Source of the DNA: Cristatella mucedo
Taxonomy: Eukaryota > Bryozoa > Phylactolaemata > Cristatellidae
Length of the DNA: 64,000 nucleotides
NCBI GenBank assembly: GCA_009760855.2
Contig: WPIO01000014.1
Span: 2,106,001-2,170,000 of the forward strand
Direction: 5' to 3'
Positions 8,703-63,800 of this stretch are shown piece by piece; the stretch's first letter is position 1; each line of letters starts with the position of its first letter. The position numbers and the translations under genes are program-made. The notes under the pieces are model-generated. The model made no database searches. It was not told the origin of the DNA and was given only the letters and a program-made list of their open reading frames with translations.

Positions 8703-8852
8703 TAAATTAAATTAAATAATTCATTTATATAGCGCCCCAAGAGAACTTAATATCTACTCAGGCGCTTCACATATGCCTCGGGGCTCGAGCCCATGACCTC
8801 AGTCAGACCTTGGTCGGGGCGAGCACCTTAACCGCTAGACCATCTTCTATGA
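8703..8852 (-). mobile_element. tRNA-derived SINE (family S1)
   Basis: Minus-oriented copy. Order on the minus strand: tRNA-like head with GGTTAAGGTGCTCGCCCCG (A-box region), GTCATGGGCTCGAGCCCC (B-box region), then the tail GTGAAGCGCCTGAGTAGATA..TTAAGTTCTCTTGGGGCGCTAT and an AT-rich end. The same unit recurs at least eight times in the window. Confidence 0.85.
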
Positions 8853-11676: not shown

Positions 11677-13164
11677 TAGCTCCTATCGCCATTCAAATCG
11701 TCATCACCCTATCCAACATCCATGTAGTCAAATCGGTGTGTTTAGGTTACTAGCATTTACTAGAGACAACTGCTACTCACTATATCGGCACTGCCAGGAT
11801 TTCATGCTCATCCCTAGGGCACCCTTGCTGGGTCCGTGTGAATTGTTCCTAATGGACTTACTCGTGCTGACCCATTGCATCTTATCACTGACCAATAGAG
11901 TGCATGGAATGAGATTATTTTCCTGAGATTGCTCTAAAGAAAGTCCTACAATGCTTATTCCCGTGTTTGCCATTATTTAAGCCTCTTTCTTGGCTAGCCT
12001 TTAAGAAACGAGTAATACTCCAATTTTTTAAACTAAGCTGGACCAGGTCAGAAACAGCATAGTTAATAATCGCATAATATTAGATCTGCTCAGAATCCAA
12101 AGTAATGCATCCTGAAAATAAATGCTGGTAGCATGGGCTCACTGTTTGGGAAGCTGGCCTAAGGGTGTGGCATGCACAGCTGACCATTGTATTACAGGTT
12201 TAAATTTAAAAACTATAGAGTAAACAGTAAAATCGGTCAGCTATGCACCCAATATTGGATTGTTCAACTAGCTGAACCTGGTTAAACCAAAAAGTGCACA
12301 AACACAGCATGTTTACTGCCAAGACATCTATAAAATATAAATATAACTAATTTGTATAGCACCCAAAGAGACCTTAATCTCTATTTAGGTGCATCACATA
12401 TGCATCGGGGCACGAGACCACGACCTTCAGTCACACCTTGGTCGGGGCGAGCACCTTGACCACTGGACCAAGCAAAACAAACACTGTTGAGAGACCGAAA
12501 AAGCCTAGCTATCCTCTCAGTAACAAAACTGTCACCTATCAGCAAGGCACTTACGTGTGCACACCGGAAGTTACGTAGTTAATCGTAGCTAGATGCATTT
12601 CAGAGCTATAATGAGTTTGAACCAATGAGCACACTTACATCCATATCAGCAGTTTTTGGTTCAAGATCTTCACCGTACTGTATGGCCATGTCAACCTGCA
12701 GTAATACGTCTCCAACAGACTCTTCCTTGGACTGATCGAGTGGCAGAAACTTCACCAGACTATAATCATCAATCTGAAGCCAAAGTATAGCATAATCGGT
12801 TAAGCAGAGAGTAGTTGGAAAACAGCTTATTACAACTAAGTCGCTGCATCAAAAAGGTCAAGAAAGCATTACGACTTTCCTAGCATGATCTAAAACGAAC
12901 GAGGAATTCGAAAAACCTGCCAATCAAGCACAAGGCTCATCATTAATTTTTGAGAAACACTAGCAACCTGCGACAAGCCATAGCAGTTGTAGCAGTGCCG
13001 TTTGTATAATCTTTCCACTGACATTACTACATCAGAGATGCCGTCCTGGTTTGGCCGAGAGGTTAAGGTGCTGGCCTTTAACGACCGAGGTCGTAGGCTA
13101 TAGCTATGCCGAAAATGTGAAGCACCTAGATAGAGATTAAACGCACGCGCACACACGTGCACAA

Positions 13165-14817: not shown

Positions 14818-17800
14818 TGTGTGTACACACACAAACACACCACCAGCACTTTCTCTCTTTGGAACATCTAACCCGGCAACTGCAGCAGTTGCTGCAAAAT
14901 TGTAGCTTTTTCTTCAGTGCTCTAAATGATTCTCAAAATTGTTACACTTTTCAATGAAAGAAATAATAACAGCCTCTTGGCCAACACAATACGTATTTGA
15001 ATAAATTATTATCAGGTGATGAGGCATACCGAGTCAGCAAAGGTCTGCAAATAAGTACAGTGAACAAAACAATCATAAACTCTACCATCCAAGTATGAAT
15101 GGTATTTAAGGATGTAGCTTCTTCAGCACCACTGTAGAAATTGTGCATGACCAATCCTCAGAGGTAAGCCCTTCCGTGAGCTATTATTCTTGCCCACCTA
15201 CCAGGACTAATATCAACCGATCTCCCTGAGATGCCATTAAGGGCATATTTCACGTGTGCCCAAGATTTTTTGAAATGATTTACACAGTAATCATAACTAG
15301 CTGTCTACTTATATAAAGTTACTAGAGTTATATTAAGCAGTCACTAATGTCACGCCATGGAGACTCAGCACCATTCAAGTAAGGAGCTTTCTGAATCCCT
15401 GTAAGCTGAACCATAGACTTGGAAAGCACACACTGTGTATGTAAGAACGTATGTGTCTTATGTATCTTAATCTCAAAAAATCCTTGCAGTAGGCGGCAGC
15501 TGAAGTGGCTGCTCCTCAGCTCGGGTATTCTTCTCAATGCCTGGCACACTGAAGTTGCCCAAATCATATTTTAATATGTATAGACAGCCCACAAATTAAC
15601 ACATATGCTCTTGGTATGTATGAGCCAAGTTCGACGTTTCGCCATGATTGTCCATGCTATGCATGTCTATGATTAAAGAATATAAAGTTTAAGGACCCTT
15701 GACGACATTTACAGTCATACTTACCCAACCGAAATCAGAAATAAACTATGGAAGAAAATGAAAAAAAATTGAAATAATGAGTTATAGCCTTGGATAGCCG
15801 GTTGCCAAAGGTGGGTTACGATGTAGCAGGGCATGACTTTGCTTGTTGCGATCGGGTTTATGCTTTTTGATTGTTATAAATACCGGAAGGAGTTGACCTC
15901 GATGTATATCGTTATCTTGAAAAATTAACGTCATTACGGTTTCAAGTGATGGTCTGGCATCAGTTTATGGCTGAGTAGCTTTTATTGATAAAGTTGGCCG
16001 AAAAACGTGATCCGGTGGCGTTAAATTTTCCTACGAGGATCAAGGAGAAAACTTTCACCAGAACTTACTGGTCTTAAAACGTTGCTATCAAGGCTATACA
16101 ACAAAACATAATGGTGGACTACATTTGGTGGCTGATTTGCAAGTGATTTAAATTATAACTCTAAAACTGGAAACACTACTCACTTCTAAATCAAGTGTGG
16201 TCAATCTTGAATAAGTTCATCACAAATACGTGTTAATTTTGATTAATTTGTTACTTTCTATTTCTTAATTAATGCGAACACAGATTTTTCAATTGGCCAG
16301 GTTTTATGTTGGTAATGGATCAAATTCAAGTTTACCACATTCTTGGTCAGAAAAGCCAAGTTTGGGGGAATAATGAATGGATATGAAAGAAAAAGAAAAA
16401 AGAATATGCACACAAAATTTGCAAAGCAGGAAGCTAGTCATAAGCTGTAGACCGAGGCTACAAGTGAGGTCTCGGCCTGATTAACTGAAGTACTCCACTC
16501 GGCAGGCCCAGCAGCCTGATAATAATAAAAATAATAATTCATTTGTATGGCACCCCAAGAGAACTTAATCTCTCTATTCAAGTGTTTCACATATGCCTCG
16601 GGACTCGAGCCCACGACCTCAGCCAGACCTTAGTCGGGGCGAGCACCTTAACCACTGAACCAAACCAGCTCAACCGGCTACGCTGGACGACCTACGACTG
16701 TCTGAAGTGCAGATGCTGTGCAGGAGCAAAGCAAAAGATCTAGCAGCAGCCGAAAGCAAACGCAGGTTTTTTGCATAACTTAAGTACAAATACACATTAA
16801 TTTCGATTTATTTGTTGCTTTTCCTGACTAAATGTGAGCCAAAAATGCGAATTCGTCCTTTTTTCAGGTGAAAATTAAAAGTTTTGGAGGATAGCGAATG
16901 GACATTTTCTATACTTTTCAAGGCACAAGCAATTCTGAAATAACACTTACTACCCAGAAAAAGTATTACACCTTGTAAACAGTCATGCATTTGCATGTAG
17001 CCCAACCTGCATAGGTGCTTCCCTCCTTTAAAAATTCTAAGATGGCATAGAAATCAATTCATCTAAAACTGCTTCTGTCTCCACAATTTAATTCGGACTT
17101 TTATGTCCTTTGACCTTGCAAGGGTTTTGACAAGAAGTTATTAGCTAGCAGCACTTTTTTTTAGTAGTTATTCTCTTCATTAGTCTTCAGTTGCCTTGTT
17201 CCGTTCCGGGATATGCGCCAGCCACTGGTCATATAGTGTCACTCATTTGGGAGAAATAATAAGTGAAGGCACCTTGGCTGAGAAAAGGTCCACCAGTCTC
17301 TTTGCAAACCCTCTACAGTAACAAGGTCAGCACCCATGTCCTATCCCCCTCATGCTCAAAAGATACCACTGGTTGAGGCAGGTTAGGGTTTTCTCCATTA
17401 ATTGCAAGGCGGCATATAGCTCCTCTTCAAACCGTGGCCTGAGACTCCCTGAAGCTTCTATATGATATTGTGTTGACTTCAAGTTCTCAGTCAGAACAAA
17501 AAGTGGCCGAGTAAGACTTGTAAATGCATTTGTTCGACATGGAACCATCAATCTGCAGAAAGATTTTCATGTATAGATCAGGGCAAGGAACTAATGCCTA
17601 TTAGTTTCATTTATGTAGGCCTGTTTCAAATAACACTCCTAACTCCAACAGTTCCATGTAAGACGTTTCTCCCCCAAGCTAATCGATATTGCATAAATTA
17701 GAAATTCTTACATACCAGTAATTTAACTGCCAAATTGGGCTGGCAAGAAAACAAAAACTTGTATTGCTTCTACGCAACTAGGGATTTAGTCAGTCAAAAG

Positions 17801-20800: not shown

Positions 20801-23800
20801 TCCATGAGTTGCCCATCATGGCAATTCGTACGTGTGCATCCAATAATTAGCAGACAGAACCAGCACCCAGTCCAGTCGGTGGCTTAGGAAAAGATAAATA
20901 TATTTAAATATATTTCATTTGTATAGCACCCCAAGAGAATTAAATCTCTATTCAGGCGCTTCACATATGCCTCACGGCTCGAGCCCACGACCTCAGCCAG
21001 ACCTTAGTCGGGGCGAGCACCTTAACCGCTGGACCAACCTGGTAATCGAGCAATTCTGGACTGTCCCAATGCTTTTGCGTTTGAGTGCACCTGCATAGCC
21101 ATGGCAGTACCCTCAGCTTACTACCAACGAAAGAACATTCTATTAACATTGCAAAAAGTCCCATCTTGATCTCCAGGCTAAGCCTTCAGTGTCTAAGAAC
21201 AAGGGTAGTTCGAAGCCAAACAGTTTGGACAGTGCAAAGGCATAAGGTTCGGCTACTTAATGAAACCGATACAAGTTCAGGAACGAGGCAATTCACACTT
21301 TCACGAGAACTTTCACGAGTTGCACTTTCATGAGTTGCAACATTAATGGCTTGGTGACCATCAAAATAATTGACAAGCCATAGTAAATGCCCAACCTATT
21401 AAATTTTCCTGTGAAAAGAGCAAAGCGATGACTTCTTCATGTGGAATGGTTCAACTAAGTTAAACTATAGTAAGCTTAATCCCACTTGTGCCAGCACCAC
21501 AAAGTATCTATTCACATAATTGCTTACTGGCAGTGCATTCTGTGCCCTTCATTGAATCAAAGGTACACGCCAGACCAGATCTTAAACGTCAAAATATGAT
21601 ATGAAACAATATTCCTTGATCGGCAGCACTACCACGAACTCACACCACGCTACCACGAACAGTAGGCCGGGGCTCCATGTCGACCTGATGGGCATATGGT
21701 GCTACATAACTAGCTGAAAAACCTGGGGAAATGCAGCTATTCACACTAGATTGCAATCAAACCAGAGTCTTACATGAGTAGCCAGGTGTTGCAGCAACAT
21801 TAGAATCTGCCTTGCCCTTCCCAAGAAGCTCAACACACTTAAAAAGACAGCAAGCAACTGCAATCCACCTACCTATCAAGATCCTTCTTGGCTTTTCGAC
21901 TGAGCAAGTCGAGTTTAGTCATGATGTTAACATGAGGAATTTCCAAGCTGACCATAGCAGATAAAGCAGACAGTATTCCGGAAACAAACTTTGATGGCTG
22001 GATCATGAACTGGGCATCGATGATAAAAACTCCACACACACGAAAGTCAGCTCGCTGTAGGTGATCGACAAGCCGACGCATCACCGATATATGAGTATAC
22101 AGTTCGATTTGGCCTAAATCAGAACATGCAGAATAAACTAAAAGTGGCATCGTGGGCAGACAAATATAGCGACACTGACTCTTAAGAGTAAATATAAAGA
22201 AAATACGAAAAATATCCGTACAAAGATCGAATATCTGCTTGAGTACTTTTCAATGGACAAACATGCTAGGAATGGAATCAGAAGTTTGGACCATCTCCAT
22301 GTAAAAAGAAAAGACGATTATTCAAACTATTTCTAAACCAGAAGCAACATACCTACAAATAAAAATTTACCAAAACCCAGACGAACACAAAATCATATGC
22401 GACTTGTCTCCCAACTTGTTGAAACTTGGTAGACCAAGGTACATGCATGAAGCTTGTTGAGGTGGATGATTGTGGCTTTCAAACAGCTTCATTTTCAGTG
22501 TAGCTTAATGCCTTATAAAATCCATAACTTTATCAATACTTCATGGATCAACAAAATCTGAAATTTGAGTTCATAACTGCTTGTAAAGCACTGCAGGAAT
22601 TTATTTCTGATTTCAGTTGGATAAGAATTGCTATACACGTCCATGATTGCAGAAAATATAGCTTCAGGACGTTTGATGACATGTGTAGCAATACCTATTT
22701 AACCAAAATCAGAAATAAAATACAGTGCTGCACAAGCAAACTCACATTTCGAATTTCATTTGATCCATTAAGTATTGACCGGGTTATGAATTTTAAGAGG
22801 CACAAAGCTACACGGGAAATTAGGCTGTTTAAAAGTCCTAAGCACGCACCTGAACAAGCTGCAAATATGAACTTCGATGTACCAGGGTTCAACAAGTTAG
22901 GGATGAGTTTATAAGCATATGATTATGGCATCGGTAATTTTATTTGTAGGTATTTTGCTTTCTGTTTACTTCTGGTTTAGATAGGGTTTGCACAATCATC
23001 TTTTTCTGTAAAATAGAAATGGTCAACACTTCCCATTTCATAGCTAACATGTTTGTTGAAAGGTACTCTATACAGATAAACAATTGTTAGACAATTGTTT
23101 TTATATTTTCTTGTCATTTAACGTTAAGAAAACACTTATCACAATGGTAGTCACACAGTTATTTCTCACACCGGGTATCCATACCAACATCAGTTGCATT
23201 TGAAAATCACACATGCTACAGCCTTCAAGAAAAAGACAAGACACTCAAAAAATACAAAGGTACCGGAAAAGTAAGGATAATAGGCAAGCACCAGAAACAT
23301 AGAACTAAAAAATCTTAAAGAGCAATAAGCAAGCTCCATCTAGATCATAATGTGCTTGGTTTAACAAGAAAATCGAAGTGTTATTACATATTAACACTAA
23401 ACACACTTGCTATTAAAGGAAAGCTCAGGCAAAGCAACATTTTTCTAAATGAACTGGACAGAAATGCATGAGAGCTTCTTCTTACAGTGCGAAAAGCAAC
23501 CACATGCTGAAAAAACATGAGGGTTAATTCAAATTAAGTGCAAGTACTATGCCTTACCCGGACAATCAAAAATAATATAGTCGTCTTCGATTTCATCCAG
23601 TTGTTCATCTAACCAATCGAGGTTGTCAGCAAGGTACCTGAATTATTGTGTACAAACGGTAAGCATGTGTAAACAAAAATTTCCCTGATCAATCCCATGC
23701 AAATATACACATCACGTGAACGTTCGTCCAAGGAACTCTATATTACACAAGCATTACAAAAAGGTATTTAAAGATGGCATTGTTTTGTAGACATCTATGT

Positions 23801-29800: not shown

Positions 29801-32800
29801 TAAAAATAAAAAGCTAAAAAGTGGCCGAGTTAGTCAACAGTATTAAGCTGAAGTACATTATGGCGTTGCCTACTTCTGCTAAGAAGAAATGTGGCTAGTA
29901 AGCAGCGACGACCTAGAAAAAACTTAGGGTTGCAACGGAAGCAATCCCCATGCACAGCTCCAACCCCAACTTACCAGCAAACACTTCATAGTTGAAGCAC
30001 TCAGCAGCTGGGTCAAGGTTCACTACATGGACAGTCCTCCGTGCAGATTCACAATGCCGGGCAATGGTACTGCAATATGTCGACTGCAACAAAACCAGTG
30101 CTTTATAGAAGATGCTTATAGTACTTATCACTCTATTCATTGTTGAAAATTTAGAGCATGTAGGCCGGCTAACATGTGACTTGGGGCAAAACAAATTCAC
30201 TCCCAGGATACCAATCTGGAGCCTTTGGCTTCCCAGAGCATGCCCTAATGAGCCTTTCTACTTTTCCTTCCACTAACACCAAGCTGTAGATCCCTTCCTG
30301 GTTTTATTAAGGTCGTTTGATACTTGGGATGTATTCTAAATCATGTGAGTGCAGCTAGCAGGCATGCAGGCAATGGAATAAATGTATGCCCATGTGCAAG
30401 CAATGAGTGCACGACTAAACATCCTCAGACGAACAAACTTCGAGAGCCATGTGATTAAAAAAAGCAGACTGAGTAAAGGTAAATCTAAAAATTGGAGGTT
30501 GAGCCATAAATAATAGCAAAAGTTGTCACCTTTCATAATATCACAACTAGAGCACACTAAAGCTAGCCCCAGGCCAAGTCCTGGTGTGATTCTATACGAG
30601 AGTAGCACTAACTAATGCCTAACAGCTTTTGATATCAGCTTAAATTTGAAATTAAAAATTATTACAACCATTTGGTACAAACATTAAAAACGTATCTACA
30701 GTACTTAATAAAGATGCAAGGCCAATTAAAAAATTCTCAAGTTGTGCCTATTGTCACATTACTCCCATGACATCTGCCTGTAATCTAGGTATACTATTCC
30801 CAAACAACTCGTCATTAAATGAGCACATTTGTTCGCCTGTCAAATCGACCAACTGCTAGCAAAGGAAAATTTCCAAAAATCACGGCCTGCTTAGATAAGA
30901 GGGCAAAAGTCAAACTAGTCAACACGTTTGGAATATGGCATCTAGATTATTGCAATTCCCATTACTCAGGACTCCGGCCTGTAGTGCTAATCAGCTGCAA
31001 CTGGTACAAAACTCAGCAGGTCGCCTGAACTGTCATCAACGAAGTAGCTGCCACATCACACCACTTCATACTCAGCTTCACTGGCTCCCTATCAAGCATA
31101 AAATCGATTTCAAGATCCTCGGCATGACTTACAGGTCACTTCACTCACTTGCACCAGCCAAACCAGTCCGACCCCCTTGTTCATCCACTGTGCTCTCGCA
31201 CAACCTGCTCGTCAACATCTGGTCATCTTGTAGTCCATTGCACTAAATTGAAATACCTATTGTTGATCAAGCCTACAGCTCGTTTGCAACGAGAGCCTGA
31301 AATTCTCTTTCAGGCAGTCTACCTGCAACGACCTTGCATGCTATAAGTCTCAGCTCAAAATGCATCTGTTTCGGTCGGCTTTTCCTTCGTCCCACGTCGA
31401 ACTATTCTTTTTTGGTCGGGTGTGCTTTGCTTGTGTACCTGTGCATGATTCATTGCATGTTATTTACTATCCAGGAGTCTTACTTGGTAAGCATGAGTGT
31501 CTTCATGTTTGCTTTAGCGTGGTGACCTAAGTATGATACTTTTTGCTTGTGCATGCTTGATAATCATGCATGCCACTTTCTCTCAGGTATTGATTCTCTT
31601 GCAGTGATTTGTAAAGCACCTGGATAGAGATTAAGTTGTCGTAGCATAATAAACACTGCATTGTTATTAAAAATGCAAGTAGTAGCAAACACTCGTAGCC
31701 ATACACACGAACACTACTACATGCTAGCACAAGCACTACTTGACAGCACTTCGAACTTGCTTGAAAGAAAGAGATACATAAAAGAGTACATCTCAATTAG
31801 TGCTTCACTTTCCACAAGGAGAAAAGATACGACAGGCTAATCAATGCTGAGCCATCTGAAAATTTCTCTGCTCTATGCGATTCATAAAAATCGTTTTCAC
31901 ACCACCGAAATGGCCTCGAAGACATCCAAAAGCCAGACACGTATCTAGATTTTAAATGGGCTATCAAAGTTGAATGCCAACAAGAGCAGCACGTGAATTT
32001 TTAGAATATGAAAAGAAAAAGTTACGGCGATATCACACCAGTTAATGCAAATCTTCAACGCAGTGAAGCATAAAGTTCATTGCAGAATCAACTTTTGTGG
32101 TGAGCCAGATATAATTCTAGGGAGGTCACATAGCCAAAAAATCTGCAATGCAACGCACCATTCAATTGCAATATGTCCTTGAACTACTCATTAATTTGAA
32201 TTTAGAGGCACTCACTCGGCTCCTTGGTCAGAGGCATAGGAAGCTTCTGCCTAAGCACGCACGTACGGCATACGATTTATTCTTATTTACTTATATCGCC
32301 TGGGTACTGCCCACAGTGAGAACCGGCTCTGAAGGCCTCTGTAAAGTTGGTCAATGCCATCATTTGCAGACAGAATAAACATACGTGCAACCACGACAGA
32401 AATGTTTTACGCTTGTCCTCCCTTTCACAAAGAACCAAAAGCTGCCATTCAAATTCTTGACACACCAAATGAGACAAGCGCAACTGCGAACTTAATTCAA
32501 TACGATCTTACGGATATAGCATATCCTTATGTAACTATGCATGTTCCAAAGTGACCTCTCGTTAGAGAGGACCACATCAGCTCCACAGTCAAATCTGCCT
32601 ACTTTCAGCTACACAACATTGCTAAAATTCGGGCTTGTTTAGATAAGGATACCACATTCAAGTTGGTCCATGCATTCGTGACATCCCGTCTCGACTTCTG
32701 CAACTCACTGCTTACTGGCCTACCGGCATGTGCGATCAAGCGATTGCAGCTGGTGCAAAACTCTGCAGCTAGGCTTGTCTGTCGTGAGCGTCGCAGTTGC

Positions 32801-33563
32801 CACATTACTCCACTTCTCGCCAACCTGCACTGGCTACCAGTCAAGCAACGGATTGACTTCAAGGTTTTGTCGCTCACCTTTAGGTCCCTTCATTCTTTGG
32901 CTCCAGCTTTCTCTCAGATCTACTCCCCCACCAGGCCAAGCATCGTACCACCCGCTTTTCGGAATCCAACAGTCTACCAATACCTCGTAAAAACCTCAAA
33001 TCCTTTGGAGACCATGCATTTATTTCGTATGCTCCCAAAGCCTGGAACTCCCTCCCGACCTGCGTCAGAACAGCCCCTGACTTGACCACATTAAAAAAGA
33101 ACTTAAAAACACACCTATTTAGGACAGCATTTAGTGGGTCCCTGTGATTCGTCCTTCATGTGCTTATGCGTGCTGACACTGTTCATGCTGCAACTAACCA
33201 CATTTACATGCTGACCCTGTGCATGTCACCACTAACCATGTTATACATGTTGTTTGTTTATCAAGCATGATATTACTCACAATCCAATTGCATTTCCCTT
33301 GCAGCAAATGTAAAGCGCCTAGAAAGAGATTGAGTTCTCCAAGGGCGCTTTATCAAGTGCATTATTATTATTATTGTTACTACTATGCATTAAATAAGCT
33401 CTACTCACCTAAAAGAGGCAGCTCGCGCACGGCGACTAACGAGCAGCTCCTGCTTCGCCAGCGACAAAGCACCTCCACAAAAACTTATTGCGCCAGATGC
33501 CATCAGAAAGCTTACCTTGCCGCTTCCAGCAGGTCCCATAACTAGTTGCGCATACCTGGGCAT
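11676..33563 (-). CDS. GPN3: GPN-loop GTPase 3 (GPN3), 8 exons, last one tentative
   Basis: Spliced minus-strand gene. Exons: 33563-33516, 30083-29975, 25327-25240, 23637-23558, 22113-21873, 18277-18178, 12773-12639 and a candidate last exon 11708-11676. The first seven total 801 bp (267 codons) with consistent GT-AG sites and phases. Seen: [16 protein letters not shown] start, P-loop completed by S17-T18, the G72-P73-N74 loop motif that names the family, DCPGQ (106-110) and TKLD (174-177). The human protein is about 284 residues and close in sequence throughout. Known for the family: GPN1 and GPN3 assist assembly and nuclear import of RNA polymerase II. Introns split the P-loop between K16 and S17 and split DCPG-Q. 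The last exon would add [10 protein letters not shown] and a stop, giving 277 residues; it rests on phase, an acceptor AG, acidity and an adjacent AATAAA. Introns hold many transposon copies. Identity is very secure, the last exon is not. Confidence 0.93.
12337..12472 (-). mobile_element. tRNA-derived SINE (S1), in GPN3 intron 7
   Basis: Diverged copy with the full order: tRNA-like head ending near 12472, GTCGTGGTCTCGTGCCCCG B-box region, and the GATGCACCTAAATAGAGATT tail, followed by AAATTAGTTATA. It lies between GPN3 exon 7 and the candidate exon 8. Confidence 0.8.
13043..13140 (+). mobile_element. SINE (S1) ending in a CA microsatellite
   Basis: Plus-oriented copy with a clear A-box region (GGTTTGGCCGAGAGGTTAAG) like tRNA-Ser/Leu, a GACCGAGGTCGTAGGCT segment, and the tail GTGAAGCACCTAGATAGAG. 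The hairpin tail is cut short and replaced by CACG/CA repeats that run into the microsatellite at 13141-13204. Confidence 0.8.
13141..13204. repeat. CA microsatellite
   Basis: Imperfect then perfect CA repeat directly after the S1 SINE copy. Confidence 0.95.
13560..14575 (+). pseudogene. Tc1-like transposase, fairly complete but disrupted
   Basis: Transposase of the Tc1 (DD34E-type) group in pieces. Recognisable order: a helix-turn-helix-like N-terminal part, then [15 protein letters not shown] (first catalytic D) near 14016-14050, [18 protein letters not shown] near 14120-14170, [19 protein letters not shown] (second D) near 14270-14320, and [14 protein letters not shown] (E) near 14375-14415 in another frame. 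An in-frame TGA follows DSSGV and a frameshift separates the last block. It lies in GPN3 intron 6 in antisense orientation. Terminal inverted repeats were not resolved, so the limits are approximate. Confidence 0.88.
14746..14838. repeat. GT microsatellite
   Basis: Perfect GT repeat to about 14812, then GC/GT and CA interruption. Histidine- or cysteine/valine-repeat frames over it are artefacts. Confidence 0.98.
16200..16390 (+). repeat. Dispersed repeat R2, left copy
   Basis: Matches 16770-16920 in order: a CACAAATACG-like block, TTAATTTTGATTAATTTGTT, and then an AAGTTTGG..GAATGGA block. The two copies flank an S1 SINE, in direct orientation. Confidence 0.55.
16519..16668 (-). mobile_element. 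tRNA-derived SINE (S1), in GPN3 intron 6
   Basis: Full minus-oriented copy: TGGTTCAGTGGTTAAGGTGC head, GTCGTGGGCTCGAGTCCCG B-box region, tail with AGAGATTAAGTTCTCTTGGG and a terminal AT/AATAAT-rich end at 16519-16540. Confidence 0.88.
16770..16920 (+). repeat. Dispersed repeat R2, right copy
   Basis: Second copy of the repeat at 16200-16390, separated from it by the S1 SINE. Confidence 0.55.
18000..18115 (-). mobile_element. Second tRNA-like SINE (family S2), tentative
   Basis: Minus strand reads a tRNA-like head (TTAAGGTGCTCGCTCTTCAA) followed by CCTACTGTAAGTGGTGGTGG, similar to blocks at 24682-24790 and 49195-49345. Divergence is high, so the family assignment is uncertain. Confidence 0.4.
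19330..20850 (-). pseudogene. Tc1-like element (second family) with broken transposase, in GPN3 intron 5
   Basis: Minus-strand transposase in several frames. In order: an N-terminal part with [20 protein letters not shown] near 20610-20540, [11 protein letters not shown] near 20455-20420, [20 protein letters not shown] (first catalytic D in GDES) near 20215-20155, and [12 protein letters not shown] near 20025-19985. Stops and frameshifts break it. A 17-bp tandem duplication (GGTAAGTAGGCTTCGTT twice, near 20065-20100) disrupts the segment after the first catalytic block. A truncated relative lies at 26490-26960. Confidence 0.85.
20905..21045 (-). mobile_element. tRNA-derived SINE (S1), well preserved
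   Basis: Minus-oriented copy with head CCAGGTTGGTCCAGCGGTTA, GTCGTGGGCTCGAGCC, and hairpin tail AAGCGCCTGAATAGAGATTT..TTCTCTTGGGGTGCTATAC ending in ATTT-rich DNA. It lies in GPN3 intron 5 next to the Tc1-like element. Confidence 0.9.
22170..23140. mobile_element. Large foldback (long inverted repeat) element in GPN3 intron 4
   Basis: The left arm (about 22170-22620) is the approximate reverse complement of the right arm (about 22700-23140). Matching anchors are GAGTACTTTTCAA/AAAGGTACTC, AACCAGAAGCAACATACCTA and its partner TAGGTATTTTGCTTTCTG, CATAACTTTATCAATACTTC and GAAATAAATTC/GAAATAAAATAC. The central spacer is about 80 bp. No transposase is present. The 123-codon plus-strand frame inside (22543-22914) is a by-product. 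The element ends about 55 bp from the acceptor of GPN3 exon 5. A shorter relative lies at 2455-2870. Confidence 0.85.
24682..24790 (-). mobile_element. tRNA-like SINE (family S2), tentative
   Basis: Minus strand shows CATGGGTTCGAGTCCTCCAG (B-box-like) and then CCACTACTGGAAGCAGTGG, similar to the copy at 18000-18115. It lies in GPN3 intron 3... to exon 3 side; coding content is absent. Confidence 0.4.
26490..26960 (-). mobile_element. Truncated relative of the Tc1-like element at 19330-20850
   Basis: Shares a run of anchors in the same order with 19350-19740: CCTACTCAC, AATATCGAG, TGACATGTCGAACTCGCCCA, AGAAGCTGATC, GACTTCATCCCAC, GGGGACTGACT-like, CCGTCACAGG. It represents only the 3' part of the minus-strand element and has no usable coding frame. 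Confidence 0.75.
28419..28562. repeat. 72-bp tandem duplication with an internal ATA/ATG-rich array
   Basis: Units 28419-28490 and 28491-28562 are nearly identical: each begins AGAAAGTA, contains AATGATAATAATAATAATAT and ends AGCAGTAGCAAATAAT. Two copies only, so a recent local duplication inside GPN3 intron 2. Confidence 0.95.
30800..31672 (+). pseudogene. LINE (CR1/L2-like, family L1a) reverse transcriptase 3' fragment, in GPN3 intron 1
   Basis: Degenerate plus-strand copy of the C-terminal end of a non-LTR retrotransposon ORF2. Blocks: [70 protein letters not shown]. The tail (AAGCACCTGGATAGAGATTA near 31616-31635) matches the family tail in degenerate form. Antisense to GPN3. Confidence 0.9.
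32560..33375 (+). pseudogene. LINE (CR1/L2-like, family L1a) 3' fragment, best-preserved copy
   Basis: A 140-codon frame (32663-33085) holds the C-terminal part of the reverse transcriptase [79 protein letters not shown]. It is 5'-truncated, as is usual for LINE insertions. The 3' UTR ends in a hairpin (AAGCGCC 33313-33319 pairing with GGCGCTT 33344-33350, inner GAGA/TCTC stem) and an ATT repeat at 33361-33375. It sits in GPN3 intron 1, antisense, about 140 bp from exon 1. Confidence 0.93.
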
Positions 33564-33875: not shown

Positions 33876-34100
33876 TACGTTCGTGCTAACACTGTGCATG
33901 CTGCCACTAACCACATTTGCATGCTGACCCTGTGCATGTCACCCCTAACCATATATTTCATTTTTTTTCAAGCATGATTTTACTTACCATTCATTTGCAT
34001 GTCCCTTTGCAGCTAATGTAAAGCGCCTAGAAAGAGATTAAGTTCTCTGAGGGCGCTTTTTCAAGTGCATTATTATAATTGTTATTATTATTATTATTCT
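33876..34100 (+). mobile_element. LINE L1a, 3' tail only
   Basis: Contains the family 3' UTR (CACTAACCACATTTGCATGC, GTGCATGTCACC), the hairpin tail TAAAGCGCCTAGAAAGAGAT..GAGGGCGCTTTTTC and an ATT/ATA-rich end at 34066-34100. No coding part remains. Confidence 0.9.
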
Positions 34101-34180
34101 TTGCAACAAATGTAAAGTGCCTAGAAAGTGATTGAGGTCTATGAAAGCGCCATGCCAAACGTATTATTATTAGTAGCAGT
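34101..34180 (+). mobile_element. LINE L1a, second adjacent tail fragment
   Basis: Immediately after the previous tail, a more diverged tail unit follows (GTAAAGTGCCTAGAAAGTGA, GAAAGCGCCATGCC) ending in ATTATTATTAG. This is either a tandem insertion into the ATT array or a tail duplication. Confidence 0.8.
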
Positions 34181-34330: not shown

Positions 34331-37070
<2,740 letters not shown>

Positions 37071-40300: not shown

Positions 40301-50967
<10,667 letters not shown>

Positions 50968-51874: not shown

Positions 51875-54800
51875 ATGACTTCGAAGAAAGACGCGGTAAG
51901 CATTTACTCGAGCTCGTGCCTTGCCTTTTGCAAATTCATTTCTCGTTACGAGTGGCGACATTCGCAAGGCCTCACTGTGTGTGTTTCGCCTGAGCGGTAG
52001 GTGTGTGCTCGCAGTGTTCGTGGTCATTAGCTATGGCCGGGTACCGATCCACTGTGAATGCTGGGCGGTCCCTGCCATTCGATTATAAACGATCATGGTT
52101 CGTTTGTCGCCGCCGAAGCTTTCCCCTGTGAAGTCCGTAATAGCGATTGTTCGAGCCATTGTGGGCTTCGAACAATGGCTGCGTTCTTCTTTCATCTTAT
52201 GCTCAATTACTCAGCTGTGTCTGTAAACTACTCAAGCCATCCCAAAAGCTCCTTTTCTTCCACTAGCCCTTACCGCCTTGCTGGCTGCCTTTTAGTCTTG
52301 AGCTGCCTATGCCGGCTGCTCCCCCACTGATCTTCGGTCTGCCAGCCTCGAAGCATAAGCCGAAGTCAATTGCTGATTTGCCACTGCCATAGGTGCCCGG
52401 AAAATTCGACGATTCGAAAGCTTTAGGACCAAGACGGCGGTGGGCAGATCGCCCTTCGTTGGCAGGCGTTGATCTTATGTCCAACCGAATCGCAACTGCC
52501 AACCTGTCGGTCAAATCTGACGTACTGTGGCAGGCTAGCTCTCCTTCTGGCGTGCAGTAGCCGCTAATCCAACGATCGATTTTACGACTGCTTGTCTTGA
52601 CATCAGCGACCCTCGATCGGCCAGTTGGTGTGCATTATTTCCTTTAGACCAGCGATAGTGGCTGCAGCAGATCACCATCTGACGGCTGGTCATCAATTGA
52701 CTGGTTATTCGAATCGTGCTGACAACCGCTATTACATTTCTTTGTGGTGCCAGTGGCCGCTGATCGGTTTCGGAGGCATGGGTATTTTAATCGCCCACAG
52801 CCCAGCCTTTTCCTTTGTAGTATTATCGGCTGCTCATTTGCATGCTCGTGTGGCTTGATTGCTATGGATACCCCCTCGTAGGCCGTGCCCGTGTCATATA
52901 TTGAAATTCTAGCTCAGTCGGATTTGGCCGGTTTAGGTTAGCCACTCTGGCAGGACCTTGGCAATGAAAGCCGTCAGTTTGTTGGGCTTCCTTTTACTAG
53001 TATAGTGCAACTACCAAACATTGTCTGCATGTCCAGACCACTGCAACCAGGACCGAGTTTTTCCAGTTTCTGTGCTGCCAGGCTAGAAAGCAAAGCTGTC
53101 ACAGTTCCAAAAATATTATGTTCATATTTATTTAGCTGAGTGTGGCCTACTTTTGCCATTGTCACGTGCTCTTCCGGTCAGTTATTGCCAAGACTGAGTG
53201 ACAGGTCTGTTTGGTAATCTGCCTGTCAACTACTGTTTGGTCACTTCGTGAATTCCATCCTGGTGGAGGCATGGGGGTACCTTCCGTGTATCGTTGCCAA
53301 TTTCTAGTCGTGATTTAGACTCTGGTGAGTTATGGAAGGGGTCATGATTTGTTTGCATAAGTTATGTCTGAACTTTTCTCAACGTTTTAGTTTTGGTGAT
53401 GCTGTTGAGGCTAGCCTGTTCCTTTTTGTTTTCCCAGGCTGCTCACTCAGGTGATAAGGCTGCTTCCCCAGTAGACAACAGGAAGCTTTCATCATCACCT
53501 GCTTTGGACATTGAGACACAAGCAAAGCTGGCTCAACGACTAATTAACCCTATGACTGCTACACCCAGAGGTGGCCATGCATATGGACCGTACTTTTTGG
53601 AGTATTGCCTTATGGCAGAATAGTGAGTATGATTTAACCACCCGTCATGTTGTCTGCTGGGCAATTAAATAATTAAATAAATCTAATTAGCCTGATTCTT
53701 TTTGAGCTACCGTTGGCTAACCCTACTCATGAGCCAGTACTGATAATGCATTTGTTAACAACAATGGCTAACTCGCACAGTCCTTGGATCAGGACTTTAA
53801 AAAAAAATAAATGGTTGCATGCAATGCAATTCTTCGACAGTGGAAACTAACATTATTGATAATACAGTACCCATAGAACTTGCTATATGATTGCATAATG
53901 GTCCTATGGTGGGAAGCTATTGAAACATCGAGTGAAGATCTGGTGGTTCTTCATTTTTCTCCTTCGTTTTTAGTCGGCATTGATAGGCTGTACCATTCTG
54001 GCTATAGCTAGTTACTCCTGTGCTTCCGGAAGTTTGGAAATCGATTTGTAATTCAGGTCTTCTTGATCTGCAGCCAATCCCTGTCGACAGCCTCGATACC
54101 AGCATGTGCGATCAGGCGATTGCAGCTGGTGCAAAACTCTGCAGCTAGGCTTGTCTGTCGTGAGCGGCGCAGTTGCCACATTACACCACTTCTCGCCGAC
54201 CTGCACTGGCTACCAGTCAAGCAATGGATTGACTTCAAGGTTTTGTCGCTCACTTTTAAGTCACTTTATTCTTTGGCTCCGGCCTATCTCTCAGATATAC
54301 TCCTCCATCAGGCCAAGCATCGTACCACCTGCTTTTCGGAATCCAACAGTCTACAAATACCTCGTACAAACCTTAAATCCTTCGGAGACCATGCATTATT
54401 TCGTATGCTCCCAAAGCCTGGAACTCACACCCGACTTGCGTCAGAACATCCCCTGACCTGACCACATTTAAAAAGAACTTAAAATGCCTATTTAGGATAG
54501 CATTTAGTGGGTCCCTGTGGTTCGTCCTTGATGTGCTTATGCGTGCTGACACTGTGCATGCTGCCACTAACCACATTTACATGCTGACCCTGTGCATGTC
54601 ACCCCTAACCATGTTATTCATTTTGTTTGTTTATCGAGCATGATTTTACTCACCATTCAATTGCATTTCCCTTTGCAGCAAATGTAAAGCGCCTAGAGAG
54701 AGATTGAGTTCTCTGAGGGCACTTTATCAAGTGCATTATTATTATTATTATTATTCTCTCATTGATGCAGTAAGCTTTAGGAATGCTCTTGATGAGCATG

Positions 54801-57800: not shown

Positions 57801-60800
57801 GGGCAGATGCAGTATTGTGTGGTCGGTGGGTAAGAAGGATGTTTTCGACAGAAAGATTGGAAACGCATCTCTTGTTACAGATGCTGTCCTTGGCTTACAT
57901 GCTGTTCCTCTGTGCATTGTGTGATGTTGTTTCACCTCTTCTGCTTGTTCAAACTTGATTCAGTGTTGGACTTCAGATGTTGCTACAAAATCTTGATTGT
58001 GTCTTTCGTAGTGACCTGGTACACAAGCAGAAGCTTCCAGGAGTGTATGTAATACCGTCAGCATTGACACCACTATGTAAGTATTGCCAGGCCGGTAGGT
58101 GGTGACAATTTCTTTGTTAACATACTGAATGCCATTCTATTTAATGCCGACCTTTGGATTTTTGTGTTTTTTTCTGATGTTTTTTGCGTGCCTATGCCAT
58201 TACTGATTGCTGCATGCTGCATATTTTTGCACTAGAAATGTGTTTATGGCTTCTTAGAATGATATAGGTCTTTGTGCTATATTAAATGTGATGAGAACAA
58301 CAGCTTAGCTAGCTGGATAGGGAAACGTACGTCGTGTTTTGCTAAAGTCATAATTTCGTCATGATTCGAAAATCCAAAATGTGCCGTGTATGGAGAGATA
58401 CGTTTTCAGTATTTTGAGCCTTAAGTTATTCTTGTATAACACGTGCTCTTAGCTTAGCCCTAACAAACATCAATCATACATATTACAAATAATAAAGAAG
58501 AACACGAAAAGTGCTCTCAAAATGTCAATAGGAACAAATGAGAAGAGCTAAGCACCACGTGTCTGTAGTGACTCTTGAGAAGAGAAAAATGACAAAGGAA
58601 AGTGGGCTGTTCTAGTAGTCAAGTCACGATCGAACTGGAAACTGAACCCCATCCTGCTTACTGTGGCCATTCTTGGTCTGTAGACAGTACCTTGCAGAGA
58701 AGCAGGCACATGTATGCCAATGTTTCTGTTGGTATTGGTTTTGGAGCGGTTGCACTTGCTGTCTGGCTTTAGCTTTGCTCGCACCTACCTTCTGCTTTTA
58801 TATTATATATATATACTACGTTTGTATAGCACCGTAAGAGAACTCAATCTCTATTCAGGCGCTTCACATATGCCACGGGTGGGGCTCGAGCCCACGACCT
58901 CGGCCGGACCTGGTTCGGGGCAAGCACCTTATATTCTGTTACTTCCCTTGTGCACGATTTTAAACTCACTGGAACTTTATGGAAATGGAAGTGTGCTACG
59001 TACGACAAGACATTATTACTCGTCCCCATTGATTGGTTTGAGATGTGTGAAATGCAGCATCTGTTGGTCTGCATAAGAAATCCGGTAATGTGGCTGAAAA
59101 TGGTCCGGAGATTACAGCTGAAAATCAAGTCACCTATTCATGTGTAGCCAAAGTCGATGGATGCATTATTGCTTAATGGCCAGCTGCCGTTCTGAGCTTT
59201 GAGGCCTTGCCTGCACCTAATGTTTGCCTTCTGTTCACTAACCTAATTATTGAATCCCCACAGAAAATGAATGTATTTAAGGTATCTTTAAGATTTTATA
59301 TAAGCAAGTACCTAGTAATTAAAAAAATTGTTATGACCCTTTCAAAGTAAATGATAAAAAAGGTAAATGATGGTGTGCCAACATGTAGGTATCTATTCTG
59401 CTCAGACGGTGCCTCAAGCAGCTTTGACCGCACTGTTCTTCGACAAAGAAAGGTGTTCACATATGGTCTGGGAGGCAAGCATCTTAATGGCTGACCTTAC
59501 CTAACTGATGCCACCCTGGTTTGGCCCCGGGTCAATGGGCTCACCTTTACGACCGAGGTCGTGGGCTCAAGCCCTGCAGCATGTGTTAAGCACCTGAATA
59601 GAGATTCAGTTCTCTTAGGGTGTTGTAAAAATGACATATTTTTACGGCATACACGAGACCGTCCAAAAACAACAGGGGTGACTATTTATTTGTCTTAAGT
59701 GAACCTGTGTGGAGGTTTTTCGAATCAGTAGATCTAGAATGTCATGGCACTCCCGGTGTGTTTGTACTGAAGTGGATGTTTTAAGCTAAAACTTCAGTGT
59801 TGACCTGACCTGTTCTCCTTTTATAGAGTCAATTACTGGCCTTTGCCTTTTCTTAATTTACCGTGTTCAGCCTACAGTTATGTGCAGCCTGTTAAAAAGG
59901 TCACTAGAAATTCTGTGTGGTCATTTCATGGCTTGGCATCCATTTCCAGTGTCTACATCTACTTGTGAGCATTTGTCTCTCGTCTGTATATCGTATTACG
60001 GTCTTGCTTAGTTCCAAATATCGTGCCAAGAAACACTAATTTAATTAGCAGGACTAGCCACTCTGACGATCACTTGATCTATGACCTTTTGTTGTTTTAG
60101 TGTGGCACGGTATTATTTTTGTCAGGCAGGGCCATTACCAGGATGGAGTGTTCAGATTTCAGCTGTTTCTGCCTGACGTTTACCCAGATGCAGATCCACC
60201 GGTGAGCTTATACATGCATTCTGAATGTGTATGATGTGTTAAATAAATTAGAAGTGGCTGTAAATTGATTATGGTGCTGTGATGAAATGCTAAAAATCAG
60301 TCAACTTATTCACTCTGGCCTTGACCTGACTGTCTCAATGCTATATCAATTAAAAGTTATTTTGGTATGATATACCAGTCGGTCTCATCTGCAGTAAGTA
60401 CTAAGGGATTTCCAAAGTGAATGGGATATATAAAGAGATGGCTGGGTTTTTTACAATATGGACTTCTCGGGTATGCTTTCCGAACCAATTAATGGCTTGG
60501 GTGCATGTATGTATGTATGTAATGTAATGTAATGTATCTCCGTCTGTAACTCCACAAAGCCGCAAACACAACTTGAGTTTTATGCATGAGAGTTTTGTGT
60601 AGCACACTCAAAGCAAAAACAGCTTTTGGTGTGCATAATATAGCTAGCATACTTTATCTTACTCAACAAAAATAAAATGAGAAGCATAGCAGAGTCTGGA
60701 ATGCAGTAGGATGGCTGGAAAGGATGTGACTAGGCGGCAGCAGGAGAGATGTCGTTGCATAAGAATTGTGGAAGTGAGTTCCACCGTCTAATACTTGCAG

Positions 60801-63800
60801 AGCAAAAGCTTCCGCCGCCAATGGTTTTTAAGCAGAGAATGGAACAGCTAATGTATTGTCCATACAGGACCTGAGGGGTCAAGGAGGCTGAAACTGGTGC
60901 AACAATTCAGCTTGTTATGAAGGAGCCAAGCCATGGTGGGCCTTGTGGGTCAGCATTAGAACTTTAGTCTGTAACCTTTGATCAACCGGCAACCATCCAA
61001 GCTCTTTCAGCAAAGGTGACACATGGTCAAACCTCTGGGATTAGCAAACTAGACTTGCAGCCATATTCATCACCAGCTTTGCTGGCATAGTGGCTTTTTT
61101 CGGTAGCTTAGCCAAAATGGAATTGCAATAATCAAGCCGAGATAGAACTAACATGTTAAATTTTTGCAAGCCGCTGTGGAAGACTGTCCCTAATCTTAGA
61201 TAGGGATCAGACGTGATGGCCAGCTGTGAAGGCAGTCTTCTTAGTGATTCTTTCAAAATTTAGGTAGCTGTCAAAGACAACACATTAATTCCAAGCACAT
61301 AGTGTACTTCGCTTTCACAGCTTGACTGAGTCTAGGCTTTCGCCCCTGCACGGCAACGATGAATTGCAAAGAGGACCGCAAAGATAAAGATCGCTAACGT
61401 TAGAGAATATAACAAAAATTACCTCGTGCCAGATTTGTATAGCACCTTAGTAGCTAAGAAGTTGTCTAGACACTGAGGTGCTAAAAAAGAAAAAGGAAAT
61501 TATTGCTTGCATGTATGAACACGTATGTGTATGTATTTATGTACATGTTGGCCTAAGCATAAAGCAGTCTCCTTTTTTGATACCATGCATTGTAATCCAT
61601 TTCGTTGTCAAACAGAAACTCGGTGCCTAATCACCCCTTCGGCTTACAGCCGTGATTAAAAACCCATTCATTATTTGCTATGTGCAACCGTTTTTCGAGG
61701 CACGTTCTCATGCATGACAAGACTGGAGTAAAGTGCTTTTAATTACTTAGGCAATGGCCACGAGACTTAAAAGGTGCTTTTATATCGTGATGGGTGGATC
61801 TCTCTGAGAGATGCATGCTTAATAGTACAACCAAACACTAATTGCTTGCTGCTTAGCCAGCACATAGCCGTGTTCGTTGATTGGAGCTTCGATATCTAGT
61901 CTGTCGTGACCATCACAGAAGAGTGAGAACTATATGATTGAAAATGTCGTGCATATATTATTTTTATGTGTTCGTCTTAGCAAGTTGCCAAATATCTTGG
62001 TATTTTTAATGATTGTTTGGATTTCTACTTGACTTGTCTTGTTCGTAGTCCTGCCTGTGCCCTCTTCCAGTTGAGTTAGCACTCGCATGACCATCACATA
62101 GTGCATGCCTAATAATTGGAAATGCATACGTTCGTTTGTGTGTTTCTGCACTGTGTACGTGCTCGTTGAAGTCTTGCGTGAAATGGGCATTATGTCCGCA
62201 ACTAACTGCGTGCGCAACTGCCAGTCATCATTAGCCCGTGCTGTCTAAGTGTAGGTGAGCTCGTGTATATCGAAATGGCACTCGATATTTTTGAGCCTAG
62301 AGTAAACTGTTACGTGTACTGCTCACATTGGTCTCGTGTTGTCGCAGTTACAACTAGAGGCAGTATGTTGCATATAGTCTAAATAATTAATCCTGTAGAG
62401 CATCGTCTTTGATCCGCCTGCATTTCATCCTGTTATCAATGGCAGCACCGGTGAGCTCGATGTCAGGAGAGCATTTCCCAAGTGGAGGTAAGTGCAGAGC
62501 AGCTTCGCTCTCTGGATTCGCATGGCACAACAACAATTTTGGTCAAACCCAAGTGTACCCAGCATAAAAAGCAAAAGTGACAAGAGACGTGCTGTCAGCT
62601 CTGACCTACTGCTCGCCCGAGAGCTGCTTCATTCTTGCAAGGAGCTTGTATTTTCAGGCGGCACAGCCATCACGTTTGGCATGTTCTACAATATGCTGCA
62701 AAAATTTTCACCAATGTGGAGACAAACGACCCTGTCAACGAAGAGGCTGCAAGACTGTAAGGCCGTTCGGCCGCGAACTCGGCATGGATGTCAGCATGTA
62801 CCGTCTGCTAGAGCTGAGTGAACGAATCGCCCTCGCTGTGCTCATTCTAGGTACGAAAAAGACCTGGAGTTTTTCAAGTACAAGGTCTCTGAGTGTATTG
62901 CCAAATGCAAGGAACGGCTCTACGAGGCTCCGAAGTCCGAAGATCCTCATCTATTTAGGTGAGCGAGCTCTCAATCCTGGTAAAAACATCTCTTGCTATG
63001 TTATTGTTTGTGCCGTCGACCTCGTTAAAGAAGTTTGCTGCTCGTTTTCGCATCTGCTGACGTTATGATGCACCCAATCCTAATCGCAGCTAATCAGCTG
63101 TTGCAAATACTCGCGACTGCGCACCTGTGTGTGGTGTTTGCGCAGCATCTCGGCATAATATGGTCCTGGCCAGCCGGTCCAGAGTGTCCGATGCTGTAAA
63201 TTGGAAATGTAAAGCAAATGCTGCTCCGACAGCTGCCTACCGCCCCTGACCTGCATCCATAGGCACACACAGAATGGTGCAATGATTTGGCGGTGGTATT
63301 TGGCTCCCTCCCCCCCCCCCCCCCGTGTCGTCGATCTGGGTGGGGAAAAGTCAGGCGGCTGCTTGCCTCCCGGCATTCTCCTTCTGGGTCTGGCCATTGG
63401 GCCCTTCGGTTCCTGTCCTTACACTCGTGCATGCAGTCATTTGAGAGCTGGCAGCTGACCTCGAGTATTTGCTGTGTTCTTTGAGCCTCCTGCCTTTCTG
63501 GTAATGAAGCAATAGCACTGCAATGTATTGTCTGGCCTTGTAGCACCTTACTCATTGCAAGCATTGCTAAGTATGTCCACTCAGGAGTAGAAACCCTTGT
63601 ATGTTAGTAAGGCTCGATGCTGTACTCACCCTTTCTGTAATGGCTCTGATTGTGTATGGCAATTGCAGCGCTTAGCTGTGTTCATCTCCAAGATATGCTC
63701 TCATGGGTTTGTACTGCTGGGAAATGCGATGGCTTCGCCTAAAACAGTCTTGTACTGTGCCAAGCTGCCAACCCAGCATTCAGGTTGTACACCAACATTT

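Follow-up and report, generated by a model that had tools for sequence, protein, structure and literature searches.

A SINE and a LINE in the genome of the bryozoan Cristatella mucedo share a hairpin-forming 3' tail

The DNA analyzed here, called the window throughout, is a stretch of 64,000 nucleotides (nt) of Cristatella mucedo lying within contig C55 of a 572-Mb, 688-contig genome. It carries copies of a long interspersed element, LINE-A, and of a short interspersed element, SINE S1, and copies of both end in a common ~47-nt 3' hairpin, which is the subject of this report. Tails were classed by the sequence upstream of them as S (SINE S1), Y (the young LINE-A type, L1a in the original prediction, which was made from the window's sequence), M (the middle LINE-A type) or O (the old LINE-A type). 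The copies in the window, including fragments of the reverse transcriptase (RT) open reading frame (ORF), are as follows.

32615..33085, + strand: C-terminal part of the RT ORF of a young-type LINE-A copy (ORF 32555-33085; tblastn relatives at other loci with up to 95% amino-acid identity)
33310..33375, + strand: hairpin tail and (ATT)n end of the young LINE-A copy with ORF 32555-33085 (96.97% identity to the LINE tail over 66 bases; hairpin −19.3 kcal/mol)
34018..34083, + strand: tail of a second young-type LINE-A copy (93.9% over 66 bases; hairpin −19.7 kcal/mol; its start, 33876, is the figure of the original prediction)
34112..34175, + strand: tail of a decayed LINE-A copy (78% over 64 bases; hairpin lost, −4.7 kcal/mol)
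54684..54749, + strand: tail of a young-type LINE-A copy (RT fragment of the same copy at 54030-54287)
30876..31669, + strand: O-subfamily LINE-A copy (RT fragments 30876-31159; tail 31611-31669)
8716..8842, − strand: SINE S1 copy, head and tail (tail 8770-8715)
12341..12471, − strand: SINE S1 copy (tail 12397-12337)
16534..16671, − strand: SINE S1 copy (tail 16590-16524)
20908..21037, − strand: SINE S1 copy (tail 20964-20910)
40747..40816, + strand: SINE S1 copy, tail partly rearranged (tail at 40781)
58811..58931, − strand: SINE S1 copy (tail 58867-58813)
59551..59639, + strand: SINE S1 copy, diverged (tail at 59585)
13040..13140, + strand: SINE S1 fragment, tail truncated in a CA repeat (tail at 13117)
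34933..34965, − strand: SINE S1 tail fragment

The LINE and SINE copies named in the original prediction lie where it had placed them, its coordinates marking approximate copy edges and the tail at 33310-33375 (+) being as quoted. Absent from its list was the O-subfamily copy ending at 31611-31669, the sole O copy in the window, whose RT fragments match LINE-A in tblastn with 69% amino-acid identity over 62 residues and 55% over 33, and whose tail is 75% identical to the SINE tail over 60 bases. The hairpin persists in window copies such as those at 33310 and 34018 and has been lost at 34112 and at 31611, where the decayed fold reaches −3.4 kcal/mol. Taken alone, the RT fragment at 32615..33085 matched no Pfam family at E ≤ 0.01. 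Searches with blastn returned 18 tail matches in the window, while ten shuffled windows gave none (approximately dinucleotide-preserving shuffle; two queries pooled at E ≤ 1e-4, such that one place may count twice).

Genome-wide, a degenerate 20-mer fitting LINE and SINE tails alike has 13,023 + 13,056 = 26,079 exact matches, against 0 in 572 Mb for the reversed control, and exact 30-mers of the S type and of the Y1 type (one of two hexaloop variants of Y, TTGAGT in Y1, 27/67, and TTAAGT in Y2, 26/67) occur 3,392 and 4,065 times, respectively. A DNA search with the SINE consensus gave no hits, a result that was set aside as evidence because the search program passes over very common words. From fetched loci and the window we collected 237 distinct tails, classed as S (73), Y (73), M (7), O (41) and unclassified (43, left out of the counts). 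This sample is non-random: 30 + 20 loci were picked by perfect S tails, 8 by the joint 20-mer, 25 regions via places matching that 20-mer, and 39 via similarity to the window's O copy, for which at least 41 matches were listed and 40 of 1459 first-look candidates scored. Counts of paired positions omit 21 of the 194 classified tails (7 S, 5 O, 3 M, 6 Y), which were not gapless or were too diverged. The M type rests on 7 copies, 4 of them in the pair counts, and its consensus was typed with GGGCGCT, as found in a cluster of 9 antisense matches to the same hairpin among the 43 unclassified tails, the plain majority being GGGCTCT.

At the level of primary sequence, the SINE tail has the consensus GGGGCGCT, and the version first proposed for it, GGGGTGCT, was wrong. 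Core consensus identities are 43/49 for S-O, 41/49 for S-M, 40/50 for both S-Y and O-Y, and 45/50 for M-Y, and local alignment scores against the S tail reach 69 (O), 61 (M) and 51 (Y), compared with maxima of 22, 22 and 27 over 1000 shuffles each. Without gaps, S matches O at 42/47 positions, M at 39/47 and Y2 at 38/47, the corresponding values for the youngest SINE type being 41/47 (O), 38/47 (M) and 39/47 (Y2). The S, O and Y2 consensuses have the same apical 16 nt, from which Y1 and M each depart by a single base; between S and Y2, 0/16 apical and 9/31 other positions differ (Fisher 0.015, uncorrected, for a region picked post hoc; the corresponding values are 0.11 for S-O and 0.07 for S-Y1).

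A second LINE in the window, LINE-B, has a different 3' end and serves as a control.

60837..61151, − strand: LINE-B RT fragment, with a different 3' end carrying (ACATT)n downstream

About half of the RT C-terminus is identical between LINE-B and LINE-A, and LINE-B was also found at loci L047 (RVT_1, 1.5e-29), L051, L017 and L057. Its 3' end consists of an (ACATT)n repeat ~60 nt after a short 12-nt motif, GCGCTATACAAA, and owing to this motif its best local score against the S tail is 24, which was reached by 1 of 1000 shuffles, whereas the O, M and Y scores were reached by none. The LINE-A and SINE tails are homologous beyond chance. LINE-B may have a SINE partner of its own.

Structurally, the consensuses of S, O, M and Y fold to one hairpin type (z −4.9 to −6.0; 0/500 shuffles fold as well, for each), in which a lower stem is followed by an internal loop of 4 and 2 nt, an upper 5-bp stem (AGAGA/TCTCT) and a hexaloop (TTNAGT). 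The outer and inner stems and 6-base loop of the original prediction are thus present in the consensuses, with an outer stem longer than it had claimed, namely 11 pairs in the young LINE and 7+3 pairs flanking an A.A mismatch in S, O and M. A G-T pair proposed as a feature of the SINE does not characterize it, pair 8-37 being G-C in 52/66 SINE copies and G-T in 10/66. Between consensuses, 2-4 of 32 stem positions differ, as do 2-7 of the remaining 15. Compensatory change, which had been named as a check, was found narrowly: S, M and Y carry G-C at pair 8-37 where O carries A-U, a single double change between consensuses, while the other stem changes (3-42, 7-38, 1-44, 4-41) retain or add a pair. 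The change at 8-37 is unlikely to reflect CpG decay of dead O copies, since decay should strike C7 as often as G8; O copies carry A at position 8 in at least 23/36 and T at position 7 in 1/34 with pair 7-38 listed.

S1 itself is ~140 bp long, comprising a ~84-nt head with boxes like those of RNA polymerase III (pol III) promoters and a ~50-nt tail, with hardly any body between them. Up to 130 bases upstream of the tail, an A-like box occurs in 35/50 loci and a relaxed B-like box in 41/50, both counted without a shuffled control. Runs of five T are found in the first 30 nt past the core in 16/72 S tails against 4/72 in the next 30 nt (Y, 5/70 against 1/70; O, 3/40 against 2/40), and the excess after the S core would suit pol III termination. 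Of 75 SINE copies with a tail, 36 align from one of the first six positions of the head and the others from further in, which fits 5' truncation by target-primed copying, although divergence can shorten alignments too. A head variant with an extra stretch loosely matching AAGGTGAATGTATTGAAGG was seen at 12341-12471 of the window and at L017, L038, L039 and L048. A few diverged SINE copies (window 12341-12471, window 59551-59639, and L050) have an O-like GCAC in the tail, and older SINE subfamilies, judged by such tails, may track the old LINE. At L013:1501-1650, a SINE S1 tail is immediately followed, in the same orientation, by a truncated LINE-A tail, which looks like an insertion into the A+T-rich end of the SINE.

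Functionally, LINE-A is a non-LTR retrotransposon, one copy of which (L053) encodes an endonuclease (Exo_endo_phos PF03372, 5.3e-12) and an RT (RVT_1 PF00078, 2.8e-26). This copy is broken, with endonuclease and RT in separate ORFs, and the combination of an APE-type endonuclease with an RT is unspecific for the L2 clade; the LINE-A RT has 12 matches among solved structures, including LINE-1 ORF2, R2 and group II intron RTs. A third ORF between these two holds LWFTTDIKLAKSTKRKLEKAY, an LW..E..Y stretch. In the zebrafish LINE ZfL2-2, the tail-binding region includes Trp325, Glu341 and Trp344, and the cTBR of L2-clade LINEs has Pro, Trp, Glu and Trp at fixed spacing (PMC4176376). The stretch at L053:4032 has Trp, Glu and a terminal aromatic residue at the ZfL2-2 spacing, with Leu in place of Pro and Tyr in place of Trp, under a variant-tolerant pattern chosen post hoc. 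This residue spacing suggests that LINE-A is L2-clade-like.

Evolutionarily, both elements include near-identical copies, with 73 S copies identical over 105 bp and 2,459 Y2 copies identical over 100 bp. A search with the O consensus gave 85-91% identity in the 40 best-scored of 5,285 first-look candidates, and an exact O 97-mer had 0 matches genome-wide, which is weaker evidence, because the true source may differ from the consensus as typed by a base or so. Median divergence without CpG is 9.9% for S heads in 16 copies not chosen by their tails and 5.9% in 46 partly tail-chosen copies, and for the 3' untranslated region (3'UTR) it is 13.1% in O (44 copies) and 10.5% in Y (54 selected copies measured against one mixed Y consensus). 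Given this last value, Y spans a wide age range, with young copies in only some of it, for instance Y2. Judging from these comparisons, amplification of the SINE considerably postdates the observed O copies. Recent SINEs were probably mobilized by the young LINE, since the scored O copies are 85-91% identical whereas 73 SINEs are identical over 105 bp, and service by Y is the simplest reading. The young LINE keeps both stems and, in Y2, the 16-nt apical hairpin of the SINE. At tail position 44, T occurs in 17/19 SINE copies within 4% of the head consensus, as in the Y consensus, and older copies mostly have C; this is a single site, counted against a head consensus that is itself that of the young SINE type, and may be coincidence.

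The pairing of SINE and LINE put forward in the original prediction is well supported, in that the tails are homologous and fold alike and LINE-B, the control, ends differently. The young LINE type named there does not, however, have the closest tail; O, of which no young copies turned up, is slightly closer (43/49 against 40/50). Tail homology, a shared predicted fold, endonuclease and RT in one LINE copy, thousands of copies, and near-identical copies of both elements are seen directly. Thus, we posit with considerable confidence that S1 and LINE-A form a "stringent" SINE/LINE pair in the sense of Okada, in which the S1 tail would descend from a LINE-A 3' end and LINE-A would copy S1 in trans. 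If LINE-A behaves like ZfL2-1, ZfL2-2 and UnaL2, its protein would bind the hairpin both in LINE-A RNA and, in trans, in S1 RNA, presumably transcribed by pol III, and would start target-primed reverse transcription there. Such binding and mobilization of S1 are what we infer from these systems.

Several observations weigh against this interpretation. Covariation is thin, with pairing double changes within families near the shuffled expectation (S, 2 against 1.4; O, 11 against 10.9; Y, 3 against 3.9; M, with 4 copies, excluded), as is expected for dead copies. O leads Y as the closest tail by little (42/47 against 38/47 for S, and 41/47 against 39/47 for the youngest SINE). No tRNA was found in the SINE head, either by ARAGORN (0 in 17 loci) or as a tRNA family at E ≤ 10 in 10 loci. 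End repeats and target sites, two features that the original prediction had proposed to compare, lend it no help: ATTx3 is present in 56/70 Y, 21/40 O and 2/7 M tails and in 3/73 S tails, such that the (ATT)n of the LINE is not matched in the SINE, whose ends are A+T-rich and mixed (TAx4 in 13/73), and SINE target-site duplications of at least 8 bases occur in 4/75 copies, not above chance (null 2.4%). The same terminal repeat in both partners is usual for stringent pairs, though not required.

Other explanations were considered. The youngest SINE tails keep states absent from Y (the internal loop and GCTATAT) and match Y2 at 39/47, and if the true recent partner were an unsampled young LINE subfamily with a tail identical to that of S1, with young LINE-A merely sharing its ancestry, those tails would follow without any tolerance in recognition. 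However, a SINE head adjoins the perfect S-type 30-mer tail in 50/50 loci and a LINE in none, which bounds the LINE share of such tails at ~6%; a rare source LINE is still compatible with that figure, and we regard this explanation as unlikely, if not strongly so. It is a good deal less probable that the tail is a relic, taken once from LINE-A by an S1 that is now mobilized by LINE-B, another unrelated LINE or some other route. The 12-nt GCGCTATACAAA is found in LINE-B, kept by S1 and lost by Y, and the terminal repeat of S1 differs from that of LINE-A, but the LINE-B motif sits ~60 nt before its terminal repeat, the rest of the LINE-B 3' end is unlike S1, and the youngest SINE type has an intact hairpin whose apical 16 nt equal those of Y2.

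The hairpin alone gives no direction of transfer, such that the LINE might in principle have captured its tail from the SINE; we think this very improbable, as the tails of the LINE subfamilies are continuous with upstream 3'UTR sequence that is also alike (CAGCAAAT / CAGCATCT / CAGCGAGTT context), whereas SINE homology to LINE-A ends at the SINE head/tail junction. Both ends are A+T-rich after the hairpin, which could hint at chance or low-complexity likeness, yet the similarity resides in the hairpin rather than in the repeat, and with 0 matches in the ten shuffled windows and 0 for the reversed 20-mer we rejected chance similarity, to which we now assign next to no weight.

Returning to the stringent pair of S1 and LINE-A, S1 most likely acquired its tail from a LINE-A relative near O and was later served by Y, and the LINE subfamily whose tail is most similar to that of S1 seems to be extinct. 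A tentative extension, which we consider somewhat doubtful, is that the SINE retained most of the tail of that extinct subfamily and continued to amplify with the successor LINE; its chances are lowered by the small margin (41/47 against 39/47) by which O is closer than Y2 to the youngest SINE. Were it correct, the successor enzyme would have to read the stems and the apical AGAGA-TTAAGT-TCTCT while disregarding internal loop, 3' flank and terminal repeat, and the C->T change in the youngest SINEs, at tail position 44, may mark an adaptation to the successor LINE, whose consensus shares that base. According to PMC4176376, the cognate loop is essential for zebrafish stringent LINEs and stems are exchangeable at some cost, with one region of the protein proposed to bind the stem and a neighboring one to read the loop. 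An apical hairpin and pairing that are kept while internal loop, flank and repeat diverge would be what this stem/loop model predicts. A literature search on SINE/LINE partner switching or subfamily coevolution found no paper. Cell-culture work on LINEs of eel and zebrafish has asked what a LINE enzyme recognizes in a 3' tail (PMC4176376), and because the LINE tail has changed here without the SINE tail fully following, the genome may hold a ready-made experiment on this question.

Two further observations concern the genome at large. At L101:107-199, a SINE tail lies beside an old-looking LINE-A tail in inverted orientation, and the two score as several microRNA (miRNA) precursor families; we rejected a miRNA identity for these Rfam matches, all of which are below the gathering score, the inverted tails forming a long palindrome, and such LINE-A/SINE pairs could mislead miRNA annotation of the genome. 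Separately, mitochondrial COX1 is on contig C688, open under the invertebrate code (TGA = Trp), and COX1-like stretches of 72-75% identity at C166:4376013-4376291 and C549:2641810-2642016 are possibly nuclear copies of mitochondrial DNA.

Compared with known systems, the architecture seen here is familiar. Eel UnaL2/UnaSINE1 and zebrafish ZfL2-1 and ZfL2-2 are stringent members of the L2 clade in which LINE and SINE have a common 3' tail with a stem-loop, as in S1/LINE-A; in ZfL2-1 and ZfL2-2 a loop caps a lower and an upper stem and a repeat unit comes next, as in LINE-A, and the zebrafish endonuclease-RT protein has its tail-binding region between the two domains, where the candidate stretch lies in L053 (PMC4176376). 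The terminal repeat of UnaL2 is TGTAA (PMC3747384), as against (ATT)n in LINE-A, and S1 lacks the terminal repeat of its LINE, which also sets this pair apart. With Rfam, which we take to include a UnaL2 model, no match was obtained in the window at the gathering score and none named UnaL2 in 7 loci at E ≤ 5, where 7 weak matches appeared, one of them (E 3.8, far below the gathering score) lying across a SINE tail but in the opposite orientation. Pairs of a SINE and a LINE with a common tail, many of them L2 or CR1, are tabulated in PMC3747384, and those listed in its Table 1 as MIR-L2, AFC-CiLINE2, HAmo SINE-HAmoL2, SINE2-8_SP-L2-1_SP and Nve-Nin-DC-SINE-1-L2-22_NV, which unite a tRNA-SINE with an L2 tail, follow the same logic as S1/LINE-A. 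Set beside MIR-L2 and the other tabulated L2-tail pairs, by listing rather than by sequence, S1 is short and has next to no body separating its head from its tail. For its T-rich end there is a precedent in maize, where ZmSINE2-LINE1-1_ZM combines a LINE tail with a (T)n 3' repeat of the SINE's own (PMC3747384, Table 2), a pair that, as far as its table entry goes, differs from S1/LINE-A in belonging to the L1 clade and to a plant. With shared-tail pairs and a (T)n-ended SINE already tabulated, S1/LINE-A is a further case of a known phenomenon, adding an abundant and apparently recently active SINE/LINE pair to those described.

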